Shown one piece after another: positions 28,838-29,416 of a stretch of DNA of 64,000 nucleotides. The stretch's first letter is position 1. Every line of letters begins with the position of its first letter. Made by a program: the position numbers and the translations under genes. A model generated the notes under the pieces. The model had not been told where the DNA came from, ran no database searches, and was given only the letters and a program-made list of their open reading frames with translations. The stretch covers positions 124,001 through 188,000 of the forward strand of contig NZ_JAANAS010000039.1 in assembly GCF_011089875.1 (NCBI RefSeq), given 5' to 3'. This DNA comes from Psychroflexus maritimus (GTDB lineage: Bacteria > Bacteroidota > Bacteroidia > Flavobacteriales > Flavobacteriaceae).

Positions 28838-28865
28838 AAAACCACACTTTTTCAAGTGTGGTTTT
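28838..28865 (-). terminator. Terminator after the GIY-YIG/tRNA fragment
   Basis: A perfect 12-bp stem (AAAACCACACTT at 28838-28849, AAGTGTGGTTTT at 28854-28865) is followed on the minus strand by a T-rich tract (A-rich 28831-28841 on plus). It would end a minus-strand transcript running through the GIY-YIG ORF and the tRNA fragment. Confidence 0.75.
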
Positions 28866-28879
28866 GTGTTTGTGGGGTT

Positions 28880-28936
28880 GGGATAGAATTCGGACCTGTG
28901 ACCGTCCCGACTTGAAAAGTCGGGATGCTCTATCCA
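28880..28936 (-). pseudogene. tRNA-Arg fragment lacking its 5' part
   Basis: On the minus strand, TGGATAGAGCATC, GACGGTCACAGGTCCGAATTC and a degenerate acceptor-like tail align with the intact tRNA-Arg at 29219-29292. The 5' acceptor and first D-stem strand are missing; the copy begins at the D-loop GG. The anticodon arm is replaced by CCCGAC-(TTTTCAA)-GTCGGG. The last Gly codon and stop codon of the GIY-YIG ORF (GGA TAG) are part of this copy. Confidence 0.7.
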
Positions 28937-29181
28937 GTTTTTTCAATTAAACGCTTTACTTTATTCTTACTCTTCCAGTTCTTAATTTCTCTTTCCCGTG
29001 CATAGGCTTCTGATTTACTTCCAAAATCTTCAGAATAAACTAGCATCCAATCTTTTGATTTGGCAGTAAATCCTTTGTGATCAGATAAGTGTTTTCTGAT
29101 TCTTTCTTTTATCTCCTCACAGGTATGACCAATATAAAACTTATCTAAACTTTTGGAATGTAAAATGTATAACTTGCACAT
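28930..29181 (-). CDS. Small GIY-YIG nuclease-like protein
   Basis: The 83-residue product begins KLYILHSK after the initiator Met-Cys and has [18 protein letters not shown] and the conserved second half [28 protein letters not shown]. It thus shows the GIY-YIG strands (YIL...YIGHT), the Arg, and the Glu in REREIKNWK. The ATG at 29181 is used because one at 29202 would lie inside the terminator of tRNA-Arg. The gene sits between intact tRNA-Arg and a truncated copy, and its C terminus (Thr-Gly-stop) reads into tRNA sequence. It may be an active or former homing-type endonuclease. Confidence 0.85.
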
Positions 29182-29189
29182 ATAAAACA

Positions 29190-29217
29190 AAAGCCACATC
29201 ATTATTGATGTGGCTTT
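29190..29217 (-). terminator. Terminator of tRNA-Arg
   Basis: A perfect 12-bp stem (AAAGCCACATCA at 29190-29201, TGATGTGGCTTT at 29206-29217) lies 2 bases after the tRNA-Arg 3' end on the minus strand, followed by TTTGTTTTA. Confidence 0.85.
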
Positions 29218-29218
29218 G

Positions 29219-29292
29219 TGATCGCGACAGGATTCGAACCTGTGACCGTCTGCTTAGAAGGCAGATGCTCTATCCAACTGAGCTACGCGACC
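29219..29292 (-). tRNA. tRNA-Arg (anticodon UCU)
   Basis: The 74-base tRNA has acceptor stem GGTCGCG/CGCGATC (one G-U pair), D-arm GCTCAGTTGGATAGAGC, anticodon stem-loop CTGCCTTCTAAGCAG with TCT, and T-arm CACAGGTTCGAATCCTGTC. It reads AGA/AGG. It lies between two degenerate copies of itself and is transcribed from the promoter at 29387-29416. Confidence 0.95.
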
Positions 29293-29312
29293 TTTTATTA
29301 TTTCAACTAACT

Positions 29313-29374
29313 CAGAACCTGTGACCGTCCCGACATTAGAGTCGGGATGCTCTATCTAACTGAGCTACGCGACC
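29313..29374 (-). pseudogene. tRNA-Arg copy with rewritten anticodon arm, truncated in the T-arm
   Basis: Reading on the minus strand from 29374, GGTCGCGTAGCTCAGTT is identical to the 5' end of tRNA-Arg, but the anticodon arm is CCCGAC-(TCTAAT)-GTCGGG, and the similarity stops after CACAGGTTC in the T-arm. It lies 7 bases downstream of the -7 box of the tRNA promoter, so it would be the first segment of the tRNA transcript. It is separated from the intact tRNA by about 20 bases. Confidence 0.7.
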
Positions 29375-29386
29375 TTTTAGCGATCG

Positions 29387-29416
29387 CAAAGATAATGTTT
29401 CCTTTTATTTTACCAA
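29387..29416 (-). promoter_or_regulatory. Promoter of the tRNA-Arg locus
   Basis: On the minus strand a TTG -33 box (29416-29414) and TATCTTTG -7 box (29394-29387, then C) are spaced by exactly 19 bases. This matches the Bacteroidota consensus and the promoter of the tRNA-Ser/Pro operon. Confidence 0.7.

Follow-up and report, generated by a model that had tools for sequence, protein, structure and literature searches.

Results

A GIY-YIG Gene Enclosed by Copies of a tRNA-Arg Gene

The question raised by this locus is why a small GIY-YIG gene should lie between an intact tRNA-Arg gene and a broken copy of it, and whether this arrangement recurs elsewhere as a genetic element. The locus lies in a 64,000-nucleotide stretch of Psychroflexus maritimus DNA (Bacteroidota; Flavobacteriaceae), hereafter the window. 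A sequence-only reading of positions 28838-29416 had described, in this order, a remnant, tRNA-Arg, terminator, ORF, second remnant and second terminator, and we found all of these parts to be present. The features are as follows.

29387-29416, minus strand: promoter-like site (TTG, 19 nt, TATCTTTG), read from the sequence, 5' of the 5' remnant.
29315-29374, minus strand: 5' remnant of tRNA-Arg, tRNA positions 1-57, with a hairpin (29329-29346) in place of the anticodon arm, from alignment.
29219-29292, minus strand: intact tRNA-Arg(TCT), Rfam score 73.8 bits.
29186-29217, minus strand: terminator-like hairpin and T-run between the tRNA and the ORF, found by eye.
28930-29181, minus strand: GIY-YIG ORF, 83 aa from its ATG, catalytic domain only, from a match to PF01541.
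28872-28936, minus strand: 3' remnant of tRNA-Arg, from the D-loop to a degenerate 3' acceptor strand (the degenerate end by eye), with a hairpin (28906-28924) in place of the anticodon arm.
28832-28864, minus strand: second terminator-like hairpin, behind the 3' remnant, found by eye.

The Bacteroidetes promoter consensus is TTG-N19-TAnnTTTG. The promoter-like site listed above is the only one spotted ahead of the intact tRNA-Arg, and a similar box closely precedes the tRNA at empty sister sites (e.g., L140, L141 and L143). The intact tRNA-Arg(TCT) is the sole full match among the matches listed in the window genome. The 5' remnant, previously ended at 29313, ends at 29315 by alignment, and the 3' remnant, likewise present, reaches slightly beyond the end first given for it and is degenerate past the T-loop. 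The ORF takes its stop codon from the 3' remnant, its end GGA TAG coinciding with the D-loop sequence as the sequence-only reading had noted, and the CCCGAC...GTCGGG hairpin described in that reading is present in both remnants. Terminators like that at 29186-29217 recur behind remnants in relatives. A second such cassette, as we call the arrangement, was found in the window genome in identical order at tRNA-Asn, with a different GIY-YIG protein.

The pattern CCCGA-N(3-10)-TCGGG occurs at three sites in the window, against 0.02 expected; two of these are the tRNA-Arg remnants and one is a terminator-like hairpin of an ompA-like neighbor (29459-29471, behind that gene), which shares the core of the remnant hairpins. 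The whole window genome has seven sites, as compared with two for the reversed control, and 16 genomes of the same genus showed a moderate enrichment (5-36 sites vs 0-7 in the reversed control). We rejected the idea that the hairpins are a high-copy genome repeat, as the window genome has only seven sites, two of them in the remnants of this locus.

Small GIY-YIG Genes Are Linked to tRNA Genes across Bacteroidota

We assembled a genus-centered set from 40 genomes around the genus of the window and 20 genome-contig loci similar to the window protein. Its 173 ORF frames were reduced to 139 by deduplication of identical domains with identical flanks and removal of two frames longer than 170 aa; the set omits three matches, in G017, G022 and G023. 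Linkage to a tRNA was seen for 97 of the 139 ORFs. A called tRNA lay within 600 bp of 70 ORFs, on the same strand in 70/70, one of these calls (L018) being a hairpin remnant mis-called as tRNA-Cys. Remnants accompanied 88/139 ORFs, as compared with 4/139 on reversed flanks, and the remnant type matched the neighboring tRNA in 78 of 81 comparisons. Cassettes at tRNA-Arg were also found in Chryseobacterium, Psychroserpens and others.

With a profile built from 28 of the proteins, matches were obtained for 168 of the 247 class genomes at E up to 0.001 and for 123 of the 198 phylum genomes at E <= 1e-10, both counts being irrespective of tRNA linkage. From the class we took a sample of 69 loci (29 returned by the profile search and 40 hand-picked from its listing), two of which repeat other regions (L193 lies within L224, and L185 is the L061 region). 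This sample was drawn with a profile of tRNA-linked proteins and thus measures the cassette family rather than all GIY-YIG genes. A tRNA lay within 700 bp at 60 of the 69 loci, again always on the same strand (60/60), in 52 cases upstream and in eight downstream of the ORF; 41 of the 52 upstream tRNAs were separated from the domain start by 45-75 bp. The tRNAs span 12 amino-acid families. Among the nine unlinked loci, seven reach the end of the available stretch upstream and two (L181 and L221) have no tRNA in the stretch. Outside the class, 17 of 19 loci were tRNA-linked, three of an initial 22 having been dropped as belonging to the class of the window itself; of the two unlinked loci, one (L251) lies where its contig begins and the other is L252.

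Beyond Bacteroidota, genome contigs, phages, plasmids and viral contigs were searched with the window protein only. No relative was detected by tblastn among 50,697 phage and 72,556 plasmid records, and a pattern scan of IMG/VR gave no close relative. The sequence-only reading had named random siting of homologous GIY-YIG ORFs as a point against a cassette, and the homologues of the window clade are mostly placed non-randomly. Its interpretation is supported by these data in part, in that the cassette recurs at tRNA genes, copies a portion of the tRNA and spares the intact gene.

Two Mirror-Image Forms with a Palindrome at a Characteristic Site

The cassettes are of two types. The 3' type begins with the intact tRNA and its terminator, followed by the ORF, a 3' remnant and another terminator; the 5' type, found at Arg-ACG, Arg-TCG and Cys, consists of 5' remnant, ORF and intact tRNA. 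In both types the position of the palindrome is characteristic of the lineage and falls in the anticodon arm, the D-loop or the T-loop, where the palindrome replaces a site that we call X, usually of 0-17 nt; the intact tRNA in the carrier, in contrast, is unchanged. In the genus-centered set, the replaced tRNA positions are 30-42 in Arg-TCT, 57-61 in Phe, 55-59 in Cys and 37-46 in initiator Met, and Asn has two forms, with either 26-35 or 59-63 replaced. In the simplest Arg-ACG and Arg-TCG remnants, the palindrome stands between positions 22 and 23 and no tRNA base is replaced. The class sample adds further spots (e.g., 30-42 in one Arg-ACG, 39-50 in Asp, and both 33-43 and 46-50 in Asn). Across the class, the hairpin may occupy more than one spot in a given tRNA, with at least four in Asn. 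In 3' remnants the hairpin lies about 8-19 nt inside the remnant, and the T-arm and acceptor strand are often retained. Some remnants are decayed, and some ORFs carry internal stops.

The exchange of the anticodon arm for a hairpin, which the sequence-only reading had described, thus holds in the window; the remnants of other tRNAs carry the hairpin in the D-loop or T-loop. Similarly, the D-loop GG that it had named as the junction is the remnant edge only in the Arg-TCT lineage and its kin, and the general junction is the hairpin; the D-loop was rejected in this general role, as other tRNAs place the junction elsewhere. Remnants do share junctions, and these are characteristic of the lineage.

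A palindrome form that starts with YCCG and finishes with CGGR is found in most remnant palindromes and is common to many clades. We examined covariation in 36 of 37 distinct Arg/Val-type hairpins; since the search pattern had fixed the outer bases, only the inner pairs count as evidence. The sixth pair was Watson-Crick in 36/36 and the seventh in 34/36, with several pair types, and this covariation was matched by 0 of 5000 shuffles, which ignore relatedness. Pairing at the eighth position was no higher than in shuffles. For 45 of the 66 remnant inserts of the class sample, stability exceeded that of all 50 shuffles; for 51 of 66, at most two of 50 were as stable, and the structure of the other 15 was not clearly above the shuffles. 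Some remnants contain two hairpins (L061 and L144). ARAGORN calls some hairpin remnants tRNA-SeC, tRNA-Phe(aaa) or tRNA-Cys (L011, L018, L026 and L034); remnants can thus mislead annotation and have probably given rise to tRNA genes wrongly annotated in Bacteroidota.

The Protein Is a Catalytic Domain Whose Clades Follow the tRNA Site

The window ORF matched PF01541 with 55 bits (cut-off 22.6), the domain covering residues 3-73 of an 82-aa query. GIY-YIG was the sole Pfam family matched, and by this match the 83-aa ORF has no DNA-binding domain besides the catalytic one. The GIY-YIG catalytic motif (Y..Y-x-G, Arg, Glu) is present in the family of the window protein; among 28 sequences, Y13, G15, R24, H28 and K64 were invariant, and Y2 and E60 were conserved in at least 90%. 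Profile comparison with the PDB returned, as the nearest relatives of solved structure, the UPF0213 proteins 1zg2 (E = 1.4e-11) and 1ywl (3.4e-11) and SLX1 (7cq2, 1.2e-5), and the homing enzyme I-TevI at E = 0.2 only.

A tree was built from 121 of the 139 proteins (domain of at least 55 aa) over 73 alignment columns, and many of its forks are open. The tRNA label changes 22 times on this tree, the minimum possible being 16 and the shuffled mean 75.8; in the labeling, L018 and L020 were set as Arg-like, their remnants resembling tRNA-Val more. Protein clades thus largely correspond to tRNA isoacceptor and site, a correspondence assessed by tree in the genus-centered set, the clades of the class sample lying outside it. 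Two Asn clades occupy different spots in tRNA-Asn, and two species carry both as tandem neighbors. In Psychroflexus, the Arg-type proteins do not form a single clade, those of the window and of L011 grouping with Chryseobacterium. Monophyly of the genus for these proteins was rejected with p-AU 0.018, an optimistic value in that the grouping had been seen in an earlier tree; the conflict fits either transfer between families or old paralogy followed by loss.

Among 15 protein pairs, three had no finite dS and were left unscored. The dN/dS ratio was 0.05-0.21 in nine of the 12 scored pairs, some of these low values resting on saturated dS, and 0.36, 0.48 and 1.03 in the remaining three, all close pairs with dS below 0.16. 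By these ratios, most scored pairs are under purifying selection. The stop codon lies inside the remnant, often as the D-loop TAG, in 16 of the 17 Arg-type ORFs listed, a count that excludes some tandem copies.

Empty Sites, Hairpin Scars and Arrays

The presence of the GIY-YIG gene differs between sister alleles of one genus at both the syntenic tRNA-Arg and the syntenic tRNA-Asn loci. At tRNA-Asn, the site is empty in G005, G009 and G014, the 380-450 bases flanking it on each side containing nothing that resembles a remnant. Hairpin scars with no ORF occur in G003, G012 and G013, where by eye about 11 tRNA bases precede the hairpin, alignment scores being at background. One ORF is present in G016 and in G004 (with an internal stop), two are present in G001 and G008, and G000, G010 and G011 have an ORF with 5' remnants. 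The terminator of the empty G005 site recurs in carriers, e.g., G008, both behind the intact tRNA and behind the last remnant, suggesting that the duplicated stretch is the lineage's own, or was homogenized.

At tRNA-Arg, the intact tRNA of the window is identical over 74 nt to those of four empty sister sites (G001, G004, G009 and G013), so that recoding of the intact tRNA was rejected; two further empty sister sites showed slight differences in the tRNA. G009 has an empty tRNA-Arg site, yet carries an Arg-clade ORF elsewhere in its genome (L077). Hairpin-bearing 5' remnants with no ORF were found at the tRNA-Arg of the sisters L142, L144 and L147, in a comparison that covered L151 and L152 in part. 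Remnants without an ORF in related genomes had been named beforehand as unfavorable to a cassette if their junctions differed; such remnants do exist, but they have the same kind of hairpin junction, as expected of scars. Isolated 3' parts of tRNA-Arg, with normal anticodon-loop sequence and no hairpin, were also seen (L166 and L167); this is the kind of trace that tyrosine integrases would leave.

Tandem ORFs occur at 23 of the 69 loci of the class sample. One array, L224 (G138:C9:904900-911600), contains ten copies, at one spacing, of a 457-base unit made of a GIY-YIG ORF and a tRNA-Met remnant, with the tRNA 3' half and terminator before, between and after the units. Nine units were compared and were identical over 457 bp, which suggests, from sequence identity, that the array was amplified very recently. 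At L175 (G004:C1:455600-457800), seven ORF-less tRNA-Ala hairpin remnants with terminators stand in tandem at a spacing of 91-93 bases, adjoining an intact tRNA-Ala. A further locus, L176 (G003:C21:17800-21500), has dense CCCGA...TCGGG hairpins and repeated intergenic stretches, with no tRNA recognized by eye.

The small GIY-YIG ORFs that carry no tRNA label (L001, L002, L116 and others) belong nearly all to one clade. An exact direct 18-mer was common to both flanks in 21 of 37 such loci with full flanks, as compared with 0 of 62 control placements, and the direct repeats inspected contain palindromes.

Discussion

A Putative Nuclease with a Probable Commitment to One Site in a tRNA Gene

Judging from the sequences, we consider it fairly probable that the cassettes are selfish, tRNA-gene-specific elements, each with a putative nuclease that consists of a catalytic domain alone and is committed to one site X. 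Their anatomy, clade-characteristic sites, direct repeats, arrays, empty sites and scars were observed directly, as were purifying selection in most scored pairs and a tree at odds with genus boundaries. Each nuclease lineage would be bound to its own X, located in the gene of a single tRNA isoacceptor or of a few closely related ones, and we infer that DNA is cut by the protein, either at X or at the palindrome. Such a break at X would be repaired in a way that rebuilds the tRNA and copies the nuclease gene in. The break would drive the duplication of half the tRNA gene with its terminator, so that the tRNA survives, and the palindrome may block or mark X. Insertion would then yield a complete tRNA gene, the ORF and a displaced tRNA part with X replaced by the palindrome. 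The ORF of a 3'-type cassette is thereby flanked by direct repeats, each made of the tRNA half with its terminator, and recombination between these repeats could expand the unit into tandem copies or delete the ORF and leave hairpin scars.

One observation sits badly with the break at X. Since the tRNA of a carrier is the same as that of an empty site, X would stay cuttable after insertion, which counts against the cassette explanation; on the sequences compared, a simple homing model does not explain an intact tRNA-Arg identical to that of empty sister sites. Also against it are the ORF's lack of a DNA-binding domain beyond the catalytic one, the match to I-TevI at E = 0.2 only, the several hairpin spots that one tRNA can have in the class, and the searches of phage, plasmid and viral records, which gave no candidate vehicle for the window protein. 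The ORF lies directly behind a terminator-like hairpin and may thus be weakly expressed, in which case self-cutting could be tolerated. The tie of each clade to its tRNA could in part reflect vertical inheritance.

The unchanged tRNA is readily accounted for if the intact gene is never cut, the nuclease acting instead on the remnant hairpin, and repair via the tRNA-half repeats expanding, shrinking and moving the array. Such a palindrome-driven amplifier, possible although in our estimate rather unlikely, would also suit a palindrome form that is common to many clades and covaries, the amplification of hairpin units that have no ORF (L175), and the placing of non-tRNA GIY-YIG ORFs between direct repeats (21/37 vs 0/62). 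The sequence relatives of the protein in the PDB, UPF0213 proteins and SLX1, point the same way; SLX1 relatives are structure-specific nucleases. However, amplification alone leaves unexplained both the tie between clade, tRNA and site and the first insertion into an empty tRNA gene. The remnants adjoin the tRNA on the same strand, their hairpins covary, and the T-arm and acceptor strand are often kept. These properties would also fit a host-domesticated RNA device, in which transcripts of the remnants resemble tRNA and act as decoys or regulators, either countering toxins that cut tRNA or aiding tRNA supply, with the nuclease as partner or by-product; for phage SegB, amplification of a tRNA segment is reported as an escape from tRNA cleavage (PMC13096335). 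We hold this to be improbable, as the ten-copy array multiplies remnants and not the intact tRNA, some remnants decay and some ORFs have stops, presence is patchy among sister species, and at other tRNAs the hairpin lies in the T-loop or D-loop.

Two more ordinary origins were rejected. Genes for tRNA are standard integrase sites, and bare 3' parts of tRNA-Arg do occur in relatives (L166 and L167), so that left-overs of a tyrosine integrase come to mind. Inspection by eye of the ORFs of 60 aa or more in 25-33 kb revealed no recognizable integrase, however, and L166 and L167 keep the anticodon loop without a hairpin, whereas the cassette remnants have a hairpin at X and a nuclease ORF on the same strand; this origin is very improbable. 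A chance neighborhood of a GIY-YIG gene and tRNA pseudogenes, for which we found no supporting point, is hardly credible given the strand counts (70/70 and 60/60), the spacing of upstream tRNAs (41/52 at 45-75 bp) and the remnants (88 vs 4 in the control). We prefer the tRNA-gene-specific cassette.

Relation to Known Systems

The free-standing GIY-YIG homing endonuclease SegB of T-even phages adjoins tRNA genes and is implicated in cutting tRNA-containing sequence, and its tandem amplification probably proceeds via microhomology that a tRNA gene shares with the 3' region of the nuclease gene; the part of the report available mentions no tRNA isotype preference, and the amplification raises the dosage of intact tRNA (PMC13096335). 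As far as that account goes, the cassettes resemble SegB in having a GIY-YIG gene beside tRNA genes and in tandem amplification. They differ from the phage-borne system in lying on bacterial chromosomes, in having clades tied to a tRNA and site, and in amplifying hairpin remnants. As with SegB-type homing endonucleases, the gene is present or absent among sister alleles at the same site. I-TevI and the Seg proteins have a separate DNA-binding region besides the catalytic domain, unlike the cassette ORF, which is the catalytic domain alone.

In fungal mitochondria, mORFs replace the 3' end of a gene and push the native end downstream; the new end has diverged and is regarded as being of foreign origin, and the atp9 case is a GIY-YIG (PMC3630166). 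Compared with what the available part of that report describes, the 3' type shows the same order of gene, new 3' end, ORF and displaced 3' end, the 5' type being its mirror image. Unlike mORFs so described, the cassettes have an intact tRNA equal to the empty sister copies, repeats that bear the lineage's own terminator, a tRNA as target, and a hairpin, which that part does not mention for mORFs. The foreign-end criterion is not cleanly applicable here because tRNA sequence is too conserved, and gene conversion could mask a foreign tRNA end. The cassette works like SegB and mORFs, and has the defining features of neither in full.

The UPF0213 and SLX1 proteins belong to the same sequence family as the cassette protein, but their entries, unlike the cassettes, state no tRNA association. 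In the genomes studied here, the GIY-YIG clade found away from tRNAs is often placed between direct repeats in intergenic DNA instead. REP palindromes with RAYT transposases likewise combine a small nuclease gene with associated palindromes. The cassettes share this pairing and differ from REP/RAYT (Y1 HUH) in enzyme fold, in their location at tRNA genes and in the duplicated tRNA halves. A search of the literature on GIY-YIG with tRNA genes, tRNA-like sequences or fragments, REP and Bacteroidota, which took in a minority of the subscription papers, found no description of such a cassette; broader queries gave mostly work on fungal mitochondria, and a query for a single-strand GIY-YIG nuclease of Neisseria returned none. 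The cassette looks like an undescribed kind of selfish element.

A wider reading, which we advance tentatively and with somewhat less than even expectation, is that of a phylum-wide minimal mobile element. Its GIY-YIG protein of about 80 aa would have lineages on fixed tRNA positions, the element would move through duplication of half the tRNA gene with its terminator, and a substituted palindrome, rather than a recoded target, would mark or block the displaced half; a related clade would use intergenic direct repeats in the same way. A solo GIY-YIG with palindromes would then be a third way of spreading small repeats, beside HUH transposases and integrases.

If true, the cassette model would explain the recurrence of small GIY-YIG genes in Bacteroidota and the hairpin-bearing broken tRNA copies around intact tRNA genes. 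A nuclease gene that lives off an apparently single-copy tRNA gene without altering the tRNA would make the question of self-cutting directly testable, and the clades, which differ in tRNA site, would provide a ready panel of related nucleases with different natural targets.
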